Assembly (NCBI GenBank): GCA_022767445.1
Contig: JALENJ010000043.1
Coordinates: 1 to 43,441, forward strand
Length of the DNA stretch: 43,441 nt
Source: Erysipelotrichaceae bacterium
GTDB taxonomy: Bacteria > Bacillota_I > Bacilli_A > Erysipelotrichales > Erysipelotrichaceae
Reading direction: 5' to 3'
Part shown: in pieces, positions 7,194 to 43,441 of the stretch
Position numbering within the stretch: position 1 is the stretch's first letter
Layout: every line of letters begins with the position of its first letter
The notes under the pieces: generated by a model
Databases searched by the model: none
What the model was told of the DNA's origin: nothing
The model's input: only the letters and a program-made list of their open reading frames with translations
Position numbers and translations under genes: made by a program

Positions 7194-7274
7194 GATATTT
7201 CCTTTAATATCGTGATTGTAAATTGCCCCAAACACTTTGTAAACAAATAATTGCTTGATAGTTGCCATAAGCAA

Positions 7275-7585
7275 TCGAGTAGGAGGAAGTTTTAAAGAGT
7301 TTTAAAACTTCCGACCTCTCACACCACCGTACGTACCGTTCGGTATACGGCGGTTCAAAACTTAATAACTATGCACTTGTTGGTAGTGGTCTGTTAGTGA
7401 TAACAGACCTTTTAATTTTAGAATCTTCGCACTGATGAGTGATCCTCGGGCCAGCAATTTGCCTAATTCTTCCTTCAGATTCCACCTCACGATGGATACC
7501 CTTGAATTCGGCTAAACCTTAGGGACTACATCCCTTGGTTAGTAGTACCTTTCAACCTCTAAGATATATGCCATGTCTGGCACAC
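7275..7585 (-). mobile_element. Miniature/deleted group IIC intron
   Basis: On the minus strand this 311-base segment begins GTGTGCC (group II 5' consensus GUGYG) and ends in CCTACTCGAT. It carries a domain V hairpin at 7323-7354 (arms ACCGCCGTATACC and GGTACGTACGGTGGT around GAAC), then GTGAGAGG and a domain VI stem at 7285-7312 (GGAAGTTTTAAA arms) with an unpaired A near the 3' end. The 5' part retains domain I sequence (GGTGGAATCTGAAGGAAG). From memory, domain V and the 5' end closely match the Oceanobacillus group IIC intron. Known ORF-less group II introns are larger and coding ones reach 2 kb; here no maturase ORF exists and much of domains I-IV is missing. The exact 3' end may be off by one base. 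Confidence 0.85.
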
Positions 7586-34278: not shown

Positions 34279-36225
34279 TTATAAGCCTCCTCGATAAATG
34301 CTTTTTGCGCCTTGATACGCAACGAAGTAATACCCTCCATACATAACAAATAGAATTGAAACTGTTACCAAAATTGTTCCAAGGTATATCTTATTCTCCG
34401 GTATAAACTTCGGAATTACTGACAGAATACCAACCCCCGCATGAAATACCGCAAGTATAAGCGGAAGTAAGAAACTGAAAGAGATTTGTCTAAATATTGC
34501 TTGGTTGATCATCTTTTGATCTGCACCAAGTTTTTCTAACATCACATATACATTTCTGCTGTCTTCAATCTGTGTTAATTGCTGTAAGGACAGAATTGTT
34601 GCACAACTCAAAATCATTATGGTTGCTACATACAACACAACAAAGATGATTGCTGTCCGTAAATCAGAAACTTCTCCATACATACCCTCTCTTGTATTTA
34701 CATTTACATATGCATTGTTACGTATTACAAGAGATGCCTGTGAAATATAGTCATCACCATAGGTTTTCTCTAATGCACTTCGAAAATCATTTTCACTTAT
34801 TTGATTAGCAAAGGAGAAATTCAATAATTCAAATTGAGCGGACTTCCCTTTCAAAATAGAATCATGTACCACAAGAACCTGTTTGCATAGTCCACTGTTT
34901 ACACTCATGTTCCAAAGGTATGTGTTCAAGATACGACTTTGATGTCGTGTAAGATTCTTCCCAAATACGGTGATTTGCTCTTCTTTTTCAGATAATTTCT
35001 CTTTTGTATCGTTCGAAATTACAGCAAACTCTCCTTCTTCTAGTTCAATTGCAGGTTTATTCTCCATTGATAAGATTTGATTACATTCAGACTGTGAAAG
35101 AACTATCGTTGATATGCCGTTTATCATCTGTTTATACAGTTGTGCGTGTGATTGCTTTGAACTGAATTGCTTTAAATCTAATCCTGCATCTTCAAAATAT
35201 GCGCATATGCCATTCGATATTTCATGACCGCTGATGGCAAGAATACTTACATCAAAAGGTGTACGTCCAAAAAGATTGTTCCGAAGAGTATCGTAGATTC
35301 CCAAGCCGCCGCAAAACATGGTAATCGATGCCGCCAAAAGCAGGCTGATCATTGCCATCGACCCAGATGTAGTGCGAACTCTTGCCGCAATTTGTCGTAT
35401 CACCACCATATTCAGATTCTTCAAATACCCTTTACCTCGGGTTTTGATCCACAATACCATTCCGGAAAGTGAACGGAAAAATAGATAACTTCCAATCAGC
35501 GCACCTGCACCTGCAATCAAAGACTGTCCAGTAAAATCTCGTACAGGTGATATAACAAGCGGTACATATCCTGCAATCATTAGTAAGATAGAAAACACAA
35601 ACAAGATTACGCTCCTGCCCAAATGAGAAACCTGCATCTCATTCTTCTTTTCTCCATAGATCAGATTCATCAATGAAGAAACAGTAACTATCTTAATATC
35701 CCAAACCAAGACGATGCCATCAATGATGGCAAAATAGGAAATTGTCTTCAGGCAGGATGCAGGTGAAAAAACAAAGTGAAACTGCGATAATCTAACATTT
35801 AACAGATTTGCTACAACGGCAGCCATTCCCTGTGAAAGAAAAATACCTATCAATAATCCCACACCAAGTGAGAGCATTCCGACAAAGATTGTTTCATACA
35901 ACAAAATCTTTGCCACGGAAAAACGGTTCATCCCCAATGTAAGATATATCCCAAACTCCTTCTTTCTTCTGTGTATCAAAAAACGATTTGCATAGACTAC
36001 AAGGAATCCTAGAATGACTGCCACAAAAACTGAAACAGCACTTAGAGCATCAACTAAATTTTGAATCAGTTCTGCTTTCGAAGACGTGAGTTCCAGCATA
36101 CTACTTTGGCTTTCCAAAGAGTTAAACAGATAGAAAATACAGATTCCCAGCATCAATGTCAGAAAATATATCGTATAGTTATGCAGACTTCTTTTTATAT
36201 TTCCAAGCGCAATTTTACAATACAT
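34279..36225 (-). CDS. BceB-type ABC transporter permease
   Basis: The protein (about 648 residues from ATG 36225, [13 protein letters not shown]) has the BceB plan: ten membrane helices with a large extracellular domain between helices 7 and 8 (about 310-530) that contacts the peptide-lipid complex. FtsX-like cores are at about 50-190 and 540-640. Bce systems free lipid II cycle intermediates from bacitracin, nisin or lantibiotics. An alternative ATG at 36234 sits only 2 bases past GGGAGG, while 36225 is 11 bases away; either is possible. The start overlaps the ATPase gene, so the two subunits are coupled. Confidence 0.9.
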   Translation of the reverse strand: MYCKIALGNIKRSLHNYTIYFLTLMLGICIFYLFNSLESQSSMLELTSSKAELIQNLVDALSAVSVFVAVILGFLVVYANRFLIHRRKKEFGIYLTLGMNRFSVAKILLYETIFVGMLSLGVGLLIGIFLSQGMAAVVANLLNVRLSQFHFVFSPASCLKTISYFAIIDGIVLVWDIKIVTVSSLMNLIYGEKKNEMQVSHLGRSVILFVFSILLMIAGYVPLVISPVRDFTGQSLIAGAGALIGSYLFFRSLSGMVLWIKTRGKGYLKNLNMVVIRQIAARVRTTSGSMAMISLLLAASITMFCGGLGIYDTLRNNLFGRTPFDVSILAISGHEISNGICAYFEDAGLDLKQFSSKQSHAQLYKQMINGISTIVLSQSECNQILSMENKPAIELEEGEFAVISNDTKEKLSEKEEQITVFGKNLTRHQSRILNTYLWNMSVNSGLCKQVLVVHDSILKGKSAQFELLNFSFANQISENDFRSALEKTYGDDYISQASLVIRNNAYVNVNTREGMYGEVSDLRTAIIFVVLYVATIMILSCATILSLQQLTQIEDSRNVYVMLEKLGADQKMINQAIFRQISFSFLLPLILAVFHAGVGILSVIPKFIPENKIYLGTILVTVSILFVMYGGYYFVAYQGAKSIYRGGL

Positions 36226-36982
36226 CAGCCGCATCACCTCCCAATAGGGAAACGACTTCCATAATTTCATCAAAGAATTGTTTTCGCCCCTTGTTTCCTT
36301 TTACCAATTCATAAAACAGCTTCCCATCTTTGAGAAAGAGTATCCTTTGCGCATAACTGGCAGAAAACGGATCATGTGTCACCATCAGAATAGTTGCTCG
36401 CAGATCTTGATTTGCTTTCTTAAAACACTCCAATAAAAACCGTGCAGCTTTAGAATCTAATGCACCGGTCGGCTCATCTGCTAAAATCAACACCGGATTT
36501 GTTACCAATGCTCGGGCACTTGCAATACGCTGCTTCTGTCCTCCAGACATCTGATACGGATACTTTGTCAATACAGTTTCAATTTCTAACTTCTTCGCAA
36601 TTTCCATTACTCTATCGTGAATATCCTTTGGTTGCGTTTTCAGAATAGACAATGCAAGAGCAATGTTTTCATAACCAGTTAGAGTATCAAGCAAGTTATA
36701 GTCTTGAAAGATAAACCCTAATTTCTCTCTGCGAAATTTTGATAATTCATTTCGCTTTAATTCCGTAATATCTTTATTTTCAATAAAAATATGCCCTGAA
36801 GTTACATCACAAATTGTCGCAATACAGTTCAACATAGTTGTTTTTCCACTTCCGGATGCTCCCATAATACCGACATACTCCCCAGGATTTATACAGAAAC
36901 TCAAATCATTGACCGCCTGTGTGATGTTTCCTCTGCCACCATAGATTTTCTTCAAATGTTCAACTTTTAATATTGGTTCCAC
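36215..36982 (-). CDS. BceA-type ABC transporter ATP-binding protein
   Basis: A 255-residue ABC ATPase. Walker [13 protein letters not shown] (about 39-50), Q-loop [14 protein letters not shown], signature [15 protein letters not shown] (about 144-158), Walker [13 protein letters not shown] and the switch His in MVTHD are all intact. The MacB/BceA style C-terminal extension is present. The start is GTG, 8 bases after GGAGG. It powers the adjacent BceB permease. Its operon follows the histidine kinase gene after 163 bases that may hold a promoter controlled by the response regulator. Confidence 0.94.
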
Positions 36983-37063
36983 TTATGGCACCTCCCATTC
37001 ATCTTTACAGTATTAATTTATCTTAGAAAATACTCTCGTGCTATCTATCTTTCTAACGCTAAC

Positions 37064-37105
37064 CTCACATTTATGTGAGAAAAGGGAGTTCATTAGATGA
37101 ACCCC
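37064..37105. promoter_or_regulatory. Two hairpins between bceS and bceA
   Basis: CTCACAT/ATGTGAG (2-base spacer) and GGGaGTTCAT/ATGAACCCC lie side by side in the 163-base gap. On the minus strand the second is followed by TTTTC and could end the kinase message; the first could be the binding site for the BceR-like regulator at the transporter promoter. Both roles are inferred. Confidence 0.45.
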
Positions 37106-37145
37106 CCCACCAACTGTAATACTCTGCTTACAATGCCGATATATT

Positions 37146-38162
37146 TCAATCAGCAAAAAGGATATGTGATCTATCTTTTGGAAAACACAGTGAAACAACC
37201 GTACCGCCTGCAGTATTTTCACGAATCGACAGTTTTAAATTCATTTTCTGACATAGCGTATTGCACAGATATAAACCAATTCCCGTCGATTTTGCAAACT
37301 TCCTTCCATTTTCGCCAGTGAAGCCTTTTTCAAAAACACGATTGATATCCTGCTTCGGAATACCGATTCCATTATCGGCTATCTCCAAGAAGATGCTGTT
37401 CCCCTTTTCAAAAGCGGTGAAGCAAAGTTTTAAAGAGCCCTGCCGATATTTAATACTGTTTGACAAAATCTGATTCAAGATAAAATCTAACCATTTCGGA
37501 TCAGCGAAAACAGTTTGATTCAGTCCATTTGTTTCAATCTCCGGTTTGCAGGAAATTAATGCCTGTGAATTGGATTTAAGTGCTTTATGAACCAAATCAT
37601 TCAAATTTATTTCTCTAATCAGATAATCTTTCTCGACATTAAAACTACGGGCATAAAATAGTGCTTGTTCCACATCGTTCTCAATTCGTTTTAACTCTCT
37701 TGAAATCGTTGAGGATTCTTCAAAAGCATGGTTTTCACATTGCAAAGCAATGCAAGAAATCGGTATTTTCACTTCATGGATCCAAGTTTCAATATACTCA
37801 CGATACTCGTCTTGGGCAATACGATATTTCTCCAACGCATCATTCATTGATTTTGCAATTAGATGCAAACTATCCGTAAATATCTCTCCTTCATAAAAAT
37901 CCGGCACATTGATCAATCCTGCTACAAGATATTTTTGTTTTGTTGAATCGAGCATGTTTTCAACCTGTTTATAAAATGCATTCTTCTTCCAAAATTCTAT
38001 TCCCAAAGACAATATGTCTGCACAGAAAAGCATGATACATACAAAAATCGAAACCCAAAAACCTGCATTCATTGCATGAAAAAGAAATGTCAGAAAAATC
38101 AATACGAGCAAATGCAACAACAAATAGATCTGCTTTTCTTTCAAAAAACGAATCAAATTCAC
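37146..38162 (-). CDS. BceS-type intramembrane-sensing histidine kinase
   Basis: A 338-residue kinase with two N-terminal helices and almost no outside loop (about 13-58), as in BceS kinases that sense through their transporter. The phosphorylated His lies in WIHEVKIPI (about 128), followed by the BceS-typical EQALFYARSFNVEKDYLI segment. The ATPase domain has NQILSNSIKY (N box), DNGIGIPKQD (G1) and STGIGLYLCNTLC (G2). Its first codon overlaps the stop of the response regulator. It ends SHILFAD. Input is presumably the peptide-loaded BceAB transporter encoded next. Confidence 0.93.
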   Translation of the reverse strand: MNLIRFLKEKQIYLLLHLLVLIFLTFLFHAMNAGFWVSIFVCIMLFCADILSLGIEFWKKNAFYKQVENMLDSTKQKYLVAGLINVPDFYEGEIFTDSLHLIAKSMNDALEKYRIAQDEYREYIETWIHEVKIPISCIALQCENHAFEESSTISRELKRIENDVEQALFYARSFNVEKDYLIREINLNDLVHKALKSNSQALISCKPEIETNGLNQTVFADPKWLDFILNQILSNSIKYRQGSLKLCFTAFEKGNSIFLEIADNGIGIPKQDINRVFEKGFTGENGRKFAKSTGIGLYLCNTLCQKMNLKLSIRENTAGGTVVSLCFPKDRSHILFAD

Positions 38163-38824
38163 AATAGATACCCCATTCCTCTCTTTGTTTGCACAAATTC
38201 CTTCGCACCAATTTCATCTAATTTCTTTCTGAGACGATTGATATTCATCGTCAGTGTATTATCACTGACAAATTCATCTGATTGCCAAAGTGTATCCATC
38301 AACTTTTCCCTAGATACGATCTTTTCCGAATTTCTCATTAATAACATTAAAATCTGGCGTTCATTTCTTGTGAGTTCAACACTTCTTTCGCCATAAGAAA
38401 CAAAACTTTTTGCAATATCAAGTTTTAATCCGCGACAAGTAATCAAATCATCTTCTGTCATTCCTTTACTGCGTTTTAGAACAACTGCTATATGTGCAAT
38501 CAAAACACCAGGATTAAACGGTTTGGCAATGAAATCATCCGCACCGATTTCCAATCCCATGATCTCGTCCATTTCTCCACTGCGGCTTGTAAGAATAATA
38601 ATCGGAACAGAAGATTGTTTACGAATCTCTCGGCAAATATGAAAGCCGTCAAAATACGGCAGATTGATGTCTAAGATTATTAAATCTGGAGCAGTTGAAA
38701 GCACCTCCAATACAATATTCTCAAAATCATCACTAACAATGCCGGTATATCCATAACGACTTAGTAACTTCACAAGTTCATTACGATGCGTAGCATCATC
38801 TTCCACAATAAATATTCGGCTCAT
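38159..38824 (-). CDS. BceR-type OmpR-family response regulator
   Basis: A 221-residue regulator: receiver domain (about 1-115) with phospho-acceptor Asp in LIILDINLPYFDGF (about 52), Thr and Lys in ILTSRSGE and IAKPFN; then an OmpR-type winged helix (about 125-221) with DNTLTMNINRLRKKL as the recognition region. It starts just after the broken gene at 38830, whose end carries its GGAGG. With the downstream kinase and ABC transporter it forms the order RS-AB, so it should switch on bceAB-traX when antimicrobial peptides are met. Confidence 0.94.
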   Translation of the reverse strand: MSRIFIVEDDATHRNELVKLLSRYGYTGIVSDDFENIVLEVLSTAPDLIILDINLPYFDGFHICREIRKQSSVPIIILTSRSGEMDEIMGLEIGADDFIAKPFNPGVLIAHIAVVLKRSKGMTEDDLITCRGLKLDIAKSFVSYGERSVELTRNERQILMLLMRNSEKIVSREKLMDTLWQSDEFVSDNTLTMNINRLRKKLDEIGAKEFVQTKRGMGYLL

Positions 38825-38829
38825 AACAT

Positions 38830-39165
38830 TTAATCCTCCATCTCAAAAATCCAGAAAACTTTCTCCTGAATCATCTTTTTGATCCATTCCTTCTGCTTGC
38901 CACTTACATCACCAAATCTTTTTATGACTATATTTTCCATTTCTTCCGCCTTTAAAATCTCTGCATACACATCTGAAATCTATGCAACCATAGAAACCTC
39001 AACCGCAGCACAGTTTGTTACGGCATATGGTATTTGAAGTTCAAACTCAGAATCAATAATTTCATTAACATGATAAATATATCCCGAAACACCTTTACAT
39101 ATCTGTTTAACAGCATCACTCAAATACGCCAAGACATTTTCCTTCTTCTTGAAAAAATAAATCAA
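38830..39165 (-). pseudogene. Unrecognised gene with an in-frame TAG, N-terminus missing
   Basis: An open segment begins without a convincing start (TTG at 39165; the frame opens at TAA near 39200) and reads LIYFFKKKENVLAYL..., then TAG at 38980-38982 interrupts it in frame after EVSMVA; ISDVYAEILKAEE continues to a natural TAA at 38830. Total about 111 codons. I do not recognise the family. The residue pattern and the clean continuation past the TAG make it real coding sequence that has decayed. It lies between cas2 and the BceR gene, whose ribosome site overlaps its end. Confidence 0.6.
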
Positions 39166-39228
39166 TGGAATACCGTGATTTGATATTGATAATTAATGTT
39201 ATCATAAAGATAGTCGAATTATTATAGT

Positions 39229-39489
39229 TTAAATCAGAATATTCATTGGCTCACAAGTTCTATATAATGATTCTTTATACATTTGCTTTTCATTGTAAGA
39301 TATGTAAAACAAAATTGAATCAGTTTCGATTGATACTTTTCGTAAATCACATAGTAAGTCTCTATATGATTTTGGTGTAAGACCCCCTTCAAACACTGAT
39401 TTTTGAATATGGAACAAGTACTTTCTTAATACCTTCATTACCTTTGCACATCTTTTTTCATCAACATCATAAACACAAACCATATACAT
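39229..39489 (-). CDS. cas2: CRISPR-associated endonuclease Cas2
   Basis: An 86-residue Cas2, the ferredoxin-fold partner that dimerises and bridges two Cas1 dimers during spacer capture. Seen: the first strand MYMVCVYDVDEKR with the conserved Asp, the HIQKSVFEGGL segment and the DSILFYISYN strand. Length and sequence fit the Cas2 of type I-B/I-A loci. GAGGGAACGAAT precedes the ATG. It follows the broken cas1 by about 30 bases. No CRISPR repeats were seen on either side, so it is an orphan unless the array is elsewhere. Confidence 0.92.
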   Translation of the reverse strand: MYMVCVYDVDEKRCAKVMKVLRKYLFHIQKSVFEGGLTPKSYRDLLCDLRKVSIETDSILFYISYNEKQMYKESLYRTCEPMNILI

Positions 39490-39521
39490 ATTCGTTCCCT
39501 CTTGCTAGCTAGCATCACCTT

Positions 39522-40378
39522 TTACCATTTAAGTATAAACGGATTCATTGTTTTCAAATTGCCTTTAAGATATTCTGAAAGTTGATGTATTTCTTTGGCA
39601 ATCAGCGAGCGATAGCTATACCTTTTTCCATGGTATTCTATTGTTGATTGCATCAATATATCAAATTCTTTCATAAAAACTTTGATTCCATAGTTATTCA
39701 AAAAACATGCTTTGTTATCTTTCCAATCAAAATGAGATTTCACTATTTGCTTCTTTCTTATTAATCTCAAAACAAGCCTATCTACCAATACTGGCTTCAT
39801 GACATCAGCAAGATCAAACTGAAGTGAATCTGAGTTTTTACTTAAACTATGGATAAAGCTTATCTGAGGAAATAAACTACTTCTATCTAATATCGCAAGA
39901 TAAATACCATATAGTATTGCATAGCCATAGCTTATCATTGTATTCACTTCATTCTCAGGAGGATTTTTTGTTCTTTTTTCGAATGTAAAATCCTCCTGAC
40001 TTATTACAATGTCAAATAGTTTGTAGTAAAATTGCTTTGCTTTTGCTTCTATTAAAAGAAGTGATTCTATTGAATTGCTGTCAACAATTTCAGAAGCACA
40101 TTTTTCCAATTCATCAATTATTTCATTAACTTCTTTCCCTTTTTTCGATAATATTTTACCAATGATAACATGTTATGCAATGAACCTTTGAGTATAGTTT
40201 TAGCTATATATAATCTTTTATCAAAATCTTCATATGCATGTACCTGTTCCAATAGTATTTTTCCATTAATATACTCTTTAGGGGTGAACCTACCAGTATA
40301 ATTCCCATAGAAATTATAGAAGAGTATTGATATCTTTTTCTTATTCAATAATGAAAGACACCTCTTATTAAGTGTTAC
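39522..40378 (-). pseudogene. cas1: Cas1 (type I-B-like), 5' truncated and frameshifted
   Basis: Cas1 integrase in two frames. The first part (about 40378-40134) reads VTLNKRCLSLLNKKK, then FYNFYGNYTGRFTPKEY and IAKTILKGSLHNML, the usual N-to-middle region of type I-B Cas1. A frameshift in the A/G run at about 40134-40146 moves the reading to EVNEIIDELEKCASEIV..., which continues to TAA at 39522. Active-site residues remain in the second part: Glu in NPPENEVN, His in ISFIHS, Asp in FDLADVMKP. About 45 N-terminal residues of normal Cas1 (about 330) are missing; in their place a MarR domain is fused in frame. It cannot work as written. Confidence 0.88.
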
Positions 40379-40767
40379 CTCAGAAAAGCAGTCAAATGCT
40401 GTTGAAATCTGATCTACCAGATTGATATCAATTTCTTCCATCAGCTGTTGTCCCTTTTCTGTAAGATCCGCTCTTACTATTTTCCGGTTTACAGTATCAG
40501 TCGTCCCGAAGACATAGCCACCGCCTTCTAATACTTTGATCTTGGCATTCAGTTGCTGCTTGTTAATGCCAAGATTTGATGCCATTTCCTGTATTCTGAT
40601 CGGTCCTTCTGCAGAAAGGACAAGCAGTACCTGCAGCTGTCCGTTTGTGATACTTTTAGGCAATTCGGGTTTATATGTATAGACTACCTTTCTGTTTAAA
40701 AGCGGAAGCAGAGACAGTGTGAGATGGATGATATCATTTTCTTCCAGTTGTTTTTTGTTCCGTTCAT
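40378..40767 (-). pseudogene. MarR-family regulator, 3' end lost and fused to cas1
   Basis: The wHTH half of a MarR regulator: IIHLTLSLLPLLNRK (dimer helix), MASNLGINKQQLNAKIKVLE (recognition region), a wing (TTDTVNRKIVRADL) and LTEKGQQLMEEI, then ISTAFDCFSE, where the sequence passes without a stop into Cas1 (chimeric ORF 40118-40663 from a TTG). The real 5' end is unclear: ATG 40767 (MNGTK) would join the rest if one A were added in the A-run at 40751-40756, otherwise no good start exists. Codon use here (CTG, CAG, GGA) matches the plus-strand flavoprotein gene, from which it diverges, not cas1. It was probably that gene's repressor and is now a fragment. Confidence 0.8.
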
Positions 40768-40825
40768 AATAAGAAAATTGTTCCCTATCCTGGCAAAAAG
40801 AAAAATATAAATTTGCGTTCTTTTA

Positions 40826-40853
40826 TTGACAATTACTCTGCAAAAAATAAATA
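40826..40853 (+). promoter_or_regulatory. Promoter of the tandem-FMN flavoprotein gene
   Basis: TTGACA (40826-40831) and TAAATA (40848-40853) are spaced 16 bases apart, about 37 bases before the start codon and directly ahead of a palindromic operator. Confidence 0.6.
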
Positions 40854-40860
40854 ATATTTC

Positions 40861-40878
40861 GGTAAATAGATATTTACC
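40861..40878. promoter_or_regulatory. Perfect palindromic operator, probable MarR site
   Basis: GGTAAATA-GA-TATTTACC: 8+8 bp perfect inverted repeat placed at the expected transcription start and just before the AGGAGGG ribosome site of the flavoprotein. It is the right size for a MarR dimer, and the now broken MarR gene diverges from here. Confidence 0.7.
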
Positions 40879-40889
40879 ATAGGAGGGTT

Positions 40890-43142
40890 ATGAAAAAGTT
40901 AGTATCATTGAGTTTGGCGGTAGCTTTAGGGGCAAGCATACTGCAGGGATGCGGATCAAAAACTGGATCTGCAGAAGTATTTACTGCCAGCTCCAAGGGA
41001 TTTGGCGGTGACGTGACTATCACAGCGAAAGTAGAAAACGGAAAGATTCTATCTGCTACAGCTGAAGGAAAGTATGAAACAGAAGGAAAAGGAAGTCTTG
41101 CCATTGATTCATTCAATAACGGTGAGCTCGGTGTAAAGAGCGGAAATGATATTTCGTCCAGCAGTGTTGATTCTGTATCAGGAGCTACGGTAACCAGCTC
41201 TGCACTGCAGACAGCCTGGAAGAGCATCATCAGACAGGCAGCTGGCAATACGGATTCAAAAAAAACTACGATGAAGGAAGGCACATATACAGAAACTGTC
41301 TACGGAAACAACTATTCCAGACCGTTTAAAGTAGCTGTTACTCTAGGTAAAGATTCAATTGATGACATCCAGGTGACAGATATCGGTGGGGAAACACAGG
41401 AAATCATTCAGACAGTGATCGACAATCTGATTCCAAGGATCAAAAGCAACCAGAGCCTGGCAGTTGACTCTATTACCGGCGCAACTGCATCTTCAGGTGG
41501 TGTAAAGACTGCCGTAAAGAATGCAATTGATGAAGCCGGAGGAGACAGCAGTGAATGGTATGATGAAATTCAGTATAAATCTGACACTGTAGAACTGGAT
41601 GACTATGATACGGTCATCGTTGGACTTGGAGGAACAGGTGTGTCTGCCTTCCTGAGTGCATCAGATGCCGGAGCAAGTGTTATCGGTGTTGAAGCTGCAG
41701 CAAAGGTCGGCGGTACTTCAGCAACGGTTGGTGGCCCAATGGCAATCAACCCTAAAGATCCAAGCGTTCAGCCGGAGTCTGGCACAGAAGGATATCCAAT
41801 CGATACAGATGCATTTGAAAAACAGTGGATCAAGGATACAAATGGAGATGCCAAGAAAGAATGTATCGATATCATGATGAATGATTCCGGAAACACTTTA
41901 GACTGGATGATTGAAGACCATGGATTCAGCTTCACTCCGCTATCCAGTTTTATGATATATCCATACATCCTGTATTCTGAATATGACATCCAGAATACGA
42001 TTACACAGCTATATGTAAATGCGCTGGACGAAGCATGCAAGAAAAATGAAAAAAATCAGTATCTGACAGAAGTGAAAGCAGAAAAAATCCTTTCTGAAAA
42101 TGGAAAGATCACAGGAATCGAGGCTAGAGGCGTAGACGGAACTATCTACAAGATTCATGCGAAATCTGTAATTCTTGCAACAGGCGGTTTTGGAGGAAAT
42201 GCAGAACTGACAAAGAAGTATACAGGAATTAAAATGAATCTTTATGGAATGTACCAGAATGACGGAACGATGCTTGCATATGCAGTAGAGAACCTGAATG
42301 CAGATACATACAATATCGGAACTGCAGGTATTACACATTTAGCACGTACAACAGTAGATCTGAGGGATTCATCAGTTACACCTAGTCACCAGAAGACACT
42401 TGATGCGATTGTAGACAGTACAGATGTGCTGCATGTTGATGAAAAAGGAAACCGCTTCACACAGGGAGACAGAGCAGAAGATATTACTGAAAATGCACAT
42501 AAAGCCGGTGATTATTTCTGGTCTATCGTCAGTGATGAATATATGAACGATATCAAGGAAAACGGATTGAACCAGGTCTATATGATGCTGAATGTTCAGG
42601 ATGGTTCTCTTCCAATCATGGCAATGATTGATCCTTCTGTTGAAATTCCAGAAGAAAATGCCAAGTATATCTTGAAAGAAAACGATCCTATCACTGACAT
42701 TGACAAGATCATCAGTATTGGAGAAAAGATGGGCATCGTTGTAGAAGCTGATTCATTAGAAGAGCTTGCAGAAAAGATCGGTGCAGCAGATCTGAAAGAA
42801 ACTGTAGAAAAATACAATTCTTATGCAAAAGATGGAAATGATCCAGAATTCAACAAGGCCAAGGAAAATCTGAAGGAAGTAAGCGGAAAGAAATATTACG
42901 CAATCAAGGGTACAGGATACAGCTACAGTACATGCGGCGGACTGAATGTCAATGAAAACATCGAGGTTCTGGATAAAGATGGAAATGTCATTCCAGGTCT
43001 GTATGCTGCCGGAACAGATTCAATGGGTGTCCTGCTGAGTGAAACAACAGGATACATCGACTATGGCGGAATCGATCATGGATGGTGCCTGACTTCCGGA
43101 AAAATTGCTGGAGAAAATGCCGCTAAATACGCTTCAAAATAA
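40890..43142 (+). CDS. Lipoprotein flavoprotein reductase with two FMN-binding domains
   Basis: A 750-residue exported flavoprotein. A lipobox signal (ILQGC, Cys about 21) is followed by two tandem FMN-binding domains (about 30-118 and 128-220), each with its own attachment motif (VSGATVTS and ITGATASS), then a FAD domain (about 238-750) starting IVGLGGTGVSAFLSA. It differs from the flavoprotein at 2095-4077: it has an extra FMN domain, and the C-terminal NRLGGNA arginine motif is replaced by LLSETTGYIDYGG, so the substrate is probably not simple fumarate. Related enzymes in gut Firmicutes reduce many C=C compounds with electrons supplied from the membrane. AGGAGGG precedes the ATG. Confidence 0.9.
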   Translation: MKKLVSLSLAVALGASILQGCGSKTGSAEVFTASSKGFGGDVTITAKVENGKILSATAEGKYETEGKGSLAIDSFNNGELGVKSGNDISSSSVDSVSGATVTSSALQTAWKSIIRQAAGNTDSKKTTMKEGTYTETVYGNNYSRPFKVAVTLGKDSIDDIQVTDIGGETQEIIQTVIDNLIPRIKSNQSLAVDSITGATASSGGVKTAVKNAIDEAGGDSSEWYDEIQYKSDTVELDDYDTVIVGLGGTGVSAFLSASDAGASVIGVEAAAKVGGTSATVGGPMAINPKDPSVQPESGTEGYPIDTDAFEKQWIKDTNGDAKKECIDIMMNDSGNTLDWMIEDHGFSFTPLSSFMIYPYILYSEYDIQNTITQLYVNALDEACKKNEKNQYLTEVKAEKILSENGKITGIEARGVDGTIYKIHAKSVILATGGFGGNAELTKKYTGIKMNLYGMYQNDGTMLAYAVENLNADTYNIGTAGITHLARTTVDLRDSSVTPSHQKTLDAIVDSTDVLHVDEKGNRFTQGDRAEDITENAHKAGDYFWSIVSDEYMNDIKENGLNQVYMMLNVQDGSLPIMAMIDPSVEIPEENAKYILKENDPITDIDKIISIGEKMGIVVEADSLEELAEKIGAADLKETVEKYNSYAKDGNDPEFNKAKENLKEVSGKKYYAIKGTGYSYSTCGGLNVNENIEVLDKDGNVIPGLYAAGTDSMGVLLSETTGYIDYGGIDHGWCLTSGKIAGENAAKYASK

Positions 43143-43207
43143 TTGGAAAATGCATTTCTAAAAGAAAGTGTCATGTGCACTTGAAGCACAAGTAGATCGA
43201 AGCTTAG

Positions 43208-43260
43208 AAAAAAGGAACAGTGATGCATCATAAAGTGATGTATTGCTATTCCTTTTTATT
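43208..43260 (+). terminator. Terminator after the tandem-FMN flavoprotein
   Basis: A long hairpin (AAAAGGAACAGTGATGCATCA with TGATGTATTGCTATTCCTTTT, 5-base loop) followed by TATTTTT. The 80 bases after it show no gene. Confidence 0.85.
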
Positions 43261-43341
43261 TTTCTGTCATTAGAATCTGCAAACTACCGCCGCAACTTTG
43301 CATTTTTTGAGGGCGTACTAATGAAAGTATATTAATTATAT

Positions 43342-43441
43342 TTAGTCTAGTTTCTTAACTGGTCCTTTAAGATCTTCTTCAGAGAGCAGACTTGCAGCAT
43401 CTTCATCTGCGATAACTGTGAAGTTAGGATGCAGACGGAGT
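43342..43441 (-). CDS. C-terminal end of an unidentified protein (cut by window edge)
   Basis: The last 32 codons of a minus-strand gene that enters from beyond the window: LRLHPNFTVIADEDAASLL then SEEDLKGPVKKLD and TAA. The codon choice (GAT GAA GAT GCT GCA) and residue pattern are coding-like and resemble the neighbouring flavoprotein segment in composition. I cannot name the family from this much. Confidence 0.55.
   Translation of the reverse strand, partial: LRLHPNFTVIADEDAASLLSEEDLKGPVKKLD

Follow-up and report, generated by a model that had tools for sequence, protein, structure and literature searches.

An in-frame MarR-Cas1 open reading frame as a probable dead junction at a decaying type III-A CRISPR locus

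From our analysis of the minus strand of the window (the whole 43,441-nucleotide stretch of Erysipelotrichaceae DNA under study), one ORF at 40118-40663, listed with a TTG start and open for 181 codons, reads as a MarR regulator and then as Cas1. Profile searches matched Pfam MarR at residues 5-63 (1.9e-6) and Pfam Cas_Cas1 at residues 70-177 (4.3e-20), with the NCBIfam Cas1 models agreeing with Pfam on the Cas1 part; from stop to stop, the frame that holds this ORF spans 234 codons (40822-40121). Homology to Cas1 starts at CFSEV, which is residue 41 of 329 in the alignment to Cas1 of Holdemanella biformis, and homology to MarR stops at about ...AFD in the alignment to two MarR orthologues; by these alignments, approximately 40 N-terminal residues of Cas1 and approximately 30 C-terminal residues of MarR are lost at the join. 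Protein alignments and reading frames together place the join (...STAFD, then CFSEVTLNKR...) at 40379-40393 (-), a range rather than an exact base because MarR and Cas1 resemble each other there (for example, the MarR orthologues have FDQFTPEE and FALLSETEL, and Cas1 has CFSEV). GC content also shifts at the join, being 0.30 in 38825-40380 and 0.41 in 40381-43441. The uninterrupted MarR-then-Cas1 ORF, the change in base composition and the missing MarR end had all been described in the initial annotation and are borne out here, and the two halves, for which it had proposed protein searches, match MarR and Cas1 in Pfam. Its position for the join, near 40378, and its estimate of about 45 missing Cas1 residues are replaced by the values given above.

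The Cas1 sequence itself is broken into two frames. Cas1 part 1 (40118-40390, -) covers residues ~41-128 in H. biformis numbering, with 61% identity over 102 aligned residues, and ends at a premature stop. Cas1 part 2 lies in the -1 frame at 39522-40136 (-) (open frame 40172-39525) and is 61% identical to H. biformis Cas1 over 211 residues; the listed ORF 39522-40109 is the catalytic part (Pfam Cas_Cas1, 1.3e-43), in which the E, H and D motifs are retained. The frame breaks at 40139-40145 (-), GAAAAAAGGG, within an A6 run (40145-40140) whose H. biformis counterpart, AGA AAA AAA GGA, contains seven A; this confirms and narrows the frameshift that had been put at about 40134-40146. Most simply, to judge from this comparison, the frameshift would be the loss of one A from an A7 run. 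With ~40 residues missing and the frame shifted, a complete Cas1 reading frame is absent from the locus. The missing residues amount to roughly half of the N-terminal strand domain. In solved structures of Cas1-type integrases, this domain mediates dimer formation and helps to contact Cas2; in E. faecalis, its strand 1 takes part in the Cas2 contact (PMC6977970).

The MarR remnant (40391-40822, -) keeps its winged helix-turn-helix (wHTH) core (PF01047, 28.1 bits against a cut-off of 24.6), but complete N- and C-terminal helices are absent: the last ~30 residues are gone and the frame from 40822 to 40664 holds no ATG, GTG or TTG, leaving no usable in-frame start. The sole plausible ATG (40767-40765), at about the place where intact MarR orthologues start, is one frame off and has an A6 run (40756-40751) directly behind it, within an A_AAA_AAC heptamer at 40750-40756 (-); a -1 change is needed to pass from this ATG into the MarR frame. 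It seems, then, that the marR start region was also hit by a one-base loss in this run, a defect that had gone unmentioned in the initial annotation. Divergent from the remnant lies an intact flavoprotein gene (40890-43142, +) with two Pfam FMN_bind domains and FAD_binding_2, whose product is a lipoprotein-like reductase and whose usual divergent MarR neighbour is the one broken here. Two congeners (G062 and G037) have the same divergent arrangement of marR and FMN/FAD flavoprotein gene, with flavoproteins 66% and 59% and MarR cores 52% and 47% identical to those of the window, whereas their marR genes are separate, intact, 160-162 aa long and without Cas1 sequence. The closest relatives of the flavoprotein/MarR unit are from the same genus, which fits the host genome. 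The gene from which the remnant derives probably regulates the neighbouring flavoprotein gene, which may here be left unregulated.

On the other side of cas1, cas2 (39229-39489, -) is open over its full length of 86 aa (Pfam 1.5e-16) and shares 66% identity with H. biformis Cas2. A further gene remnant (38830-39165, -), absent from the initial annotation, lies between cas2 and the intact gene that comes next; an in-frame TAG at 38980-38982 interrupts it, after which the same frame resumes to 38830. No family in Pfam, PHROGs or NCBIfam matches it convincingly, and it sits where relatives have a CRISPR array. There is no CRISPR array in the window; near cas2 or the join, the best repeat-like match (40362-40378) is no better than chance and falls in sequence that codes for Cas1. 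A response regulator, sensor kinase, ABC ATPase and permease follow cas1-cas2 in the same order in the window (34279-38824) and at L028:11167-15750, with proteins only 26-51% identical, so that the shared order could be chance or old synteny. This neighbourhood was rejected as proof of ancestry, the response regulator being 40% identical to that of H. biformis and 39 other family genomes matching better. Elsewhere in the window, two Rfam group II intron matches were noticed at 7274-7496 (-).

The nearest intact relatives of the two cas genes are those of H. biformis DSM 3989 (NZ_DS996841.1), where Cas1 is 62% identical. There, cas1 and cas2 stand in the same order as in the window, at the end of a type III-A operon (csm1/cas10, csm2, csm3, csm4, csm5, cas6, cas1, cas2, then an array of 16 repeats), and cas1 is intact at 329 aa; csm1-csm5, cas6 and the array are all missing in the window. 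Four further genomes (G286, G308, G141 and G305) have the same III-A layout with arrays, judged by gene order and size, and no cas4 was seen in these loci or in that of H. biformis. By its sequence relatives, the cas1/cas2 lineage is type III-A-associated. The type I-B assignment made in the initial annotation is not supported, since the nearest intact Cas1 relatives sit in csm operons without cas4. Of cas3, cas8b, cas5, cas7 and cas4, none adjoins the window cas1 or occurs in the closest relatives' intact III-A loci. The earlier label is explained by a misleading model name, because the III-A Cas1 of H. biformis also passes the threshold of this 'type I-B' Cas1 model. H. biformis has a second Cas1 (54%), which adjoins other RAMP-type genes.

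We then considered the remainder of the host genome, which comprises 1.91 Mb in 74 contigs and is 97.17% complete. No Cas10 was detected in it (the best Cas10 match had an E-value of 0.011, with 22% identity over 63 residues) and no repeats matching the III-A type were found, and the cas1-cas2 piece is therefore an orphan, although, in an assembly of 74 contigs, a minor portion of such a system may have gone missing. Contig 58 (L080:5666-11933) carries a separate and apparently complete type II-A locus with Cas9, Cas1, Cas2 and Csn2, and an array of at least six repeats that runs to the contig end.

To look for recurrence of the junction, a check proposed in the initial annotation, we searched 70 genomes of the genus and 316 of the order and obtained no join-spanning match in either set, so that the join is found in one genome only; the exact join sequence was also absent from viral contigs. 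An ancestral site, with an intact csm operon adjoining marR, was found in no relative. Among the papers listed by a literature search, none describes a MarR-Cas1 fusion in its title or abstract. In the known RT-Cas1 and Cas4-Cas1 fusions, as here, the second domain precedes Cas1 in one frame; those fusions, however, retain the whole of Cas1 and are found repeatedly in different genomes (for RT-Cas1, PMC5513706), whereas the window MarR-Cas1 has lost the Cas1 N-terminus, is frameshifted and is found in one genome. Within the same genus, genome G046 encodes a 691 aa protein (L004:862-2937) that reads as a reverse transcriptase fused to Cas1, and its other Cas1 copies occupy open frames 644 and 649 aa long.

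Taken as a whole, the locus very probably holds a dead chimera, formed when a type III-A locus in decay underwent a deletion or illegitimate recombination. The ancestor would have carried a type III-A operon with csm genes, cas6, cas1, cas2 and an array. A deletion or illegitimate recombination would then have taken away all that lay upstream of cas1 codon ~41 and fused what remained to the 3' part of the marR gene divergent to the flavoprotein gene, in frame by chance, and the CRISPR array would have been lost as well. Freed from selection, the remnant would have gained one-base losses in A-runs, in cas1 and, seemingly, in marR. We infer this order of events, in which the join may stem from a deletion between neighbours or from an incoming unit, and in which the flavoprotein gene would have been left without its usual regulator. 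That both halves are incomplete at the join, cas1 is frameshifted, marR is startless and a third remnant with a stop lies beside cas2 argues for decay. Against it, both cas2 and the catalytic domain of Cas1 remain open and show good conservation, which is indicative that the decay is recent or that some constraint persists. The earlier proposal of a deletion or illegitimate recombination between a MarR/flavoreductase unit and a CRISPR adaptation locus is supported, apart from its type I-B label.

An artefact of assembly or base calling, through a chimeric contig with its breakpoint at the join or through A7 runs under-called as A6, is unlikely, as base calling could not make two truncated genes meet in frame and the in-frame TAG of the third remnant is a substitution-type defect. 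The join does lie ~3 kb from the contig end, with GC changing there, the tetranucleotide distance of the last 3 kb reaches the 97th percentile for the host genome, and both frame breaks fall in A6 runs where A7 is expected. Nevertheless, 7- and 8-base A/T runs are only slightly below the rates expected from related lower-GC sequences and are not clearly depleted, and long ORFs cover 92-94% of the sampled sequence; a general homopolymer collapse of the assembly is therefore unsupported. Still less probable is that the truncated MarR, trailing a tolerated Cas1 fragment, continues to repress the flavoprotein gene. Its wHTH core is complete and conserved, but the first in-frame start, at 40663, drops the first helix. 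The usual MarR dimer interface is formed by the N- and C-terminal helical parts, and with the last helix lost as well, both are damaged here.

A working fusion by programmed -1 frameshifting, in which the MarR wHTH stands in for the beginning of Cas1 and directs the integrase to DNA sites, appears highly improbable. The initial annotation had thought a working DNA-binding/Cas1 fusion less likely while raising a programmed shift that would give a full MarR-Cas1 protein. The former judgement is borne out by the lost N-terminus, the frameshift and the lack of recurrence. One point speaks for the latter, as an in-frame A_AAA_AAG is present at 40145-40139 and a -1 shift there leads exactly into the Cas1 catalytic frame, where the catalytic motifs are present; the product would, however, still lack the first ~40 residues of Cas1. 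An A_AAA_AAC is similarly placed in the marR start region, in-frame heptamers are uncommon in the host genome (15 sites in 218 long frames), and other Cas1 fusions (RT-Cas1) occur in the genus. On the other hand, losing one A from an A7 run that encodes a KKG motif creates A_AAA_AAG automatically, so that the heptamer can be seen as a by-product. A AAA AAG is found in 68 E. coli genes (PMC9307594), and, taken with the count in the host genome, the presence of the heptamer alone therefore means little. Among the features of dnaX-type -1 frameshifting, the slippery heptamer in frame is present and the downstream stimulatory structure is absent, no stable RNA fold being predicted (z = -0.45; 62 of 200 shuffles fold as well). 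On these grounds we rejected programmed frameshifting. Furthermore, two successive shifts would be required, Cas1 has lost half of its N-terminal domain, none of the 316 order genomes has a homologue with the join, and no array or effector of the III-A kind was detected. The chance is just as slight that the two A-run shifts reflect sequencing errors, or that slippage overcomes them, and that the locus encodes one ~420-residue MarR-wHTH-Cas1 with an intact catalytic domain beside Cas2. If true, this protein would be an integrase retargeted by the DNA-binding domain of a regulator, and a working fusion would be a new kind of Cas1 targeting.

Read as a dead chimera, the MarR-Cas1 ORF is an ordinary product of decay, yet a clear illustration that a deletion can produce an in-frame 'fusion' with the look of a new domain architecture. 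It also shows that cas1-cas2 can persist after the remainder of a type III-A locus has gone, as a second genome holds an independent, differently cut relic. In G166 (MAG S22M_St_77; L115/L029), the relic at L115:1-864 has, like the window, a 5'-truncated cas1 with a stop, an intact cas2 and no adjoining csm genes; unlike in the window, cas1 is cut at about codon 181, carries an in-frame TGA and is not joined to marR. The different breakpoint indicates that truncation of cas1 with survival of cas2 happened at least twice. On L115, a separate operon resembling type I-E begins at 5.6 kb, after the cas1-cas2 relic.
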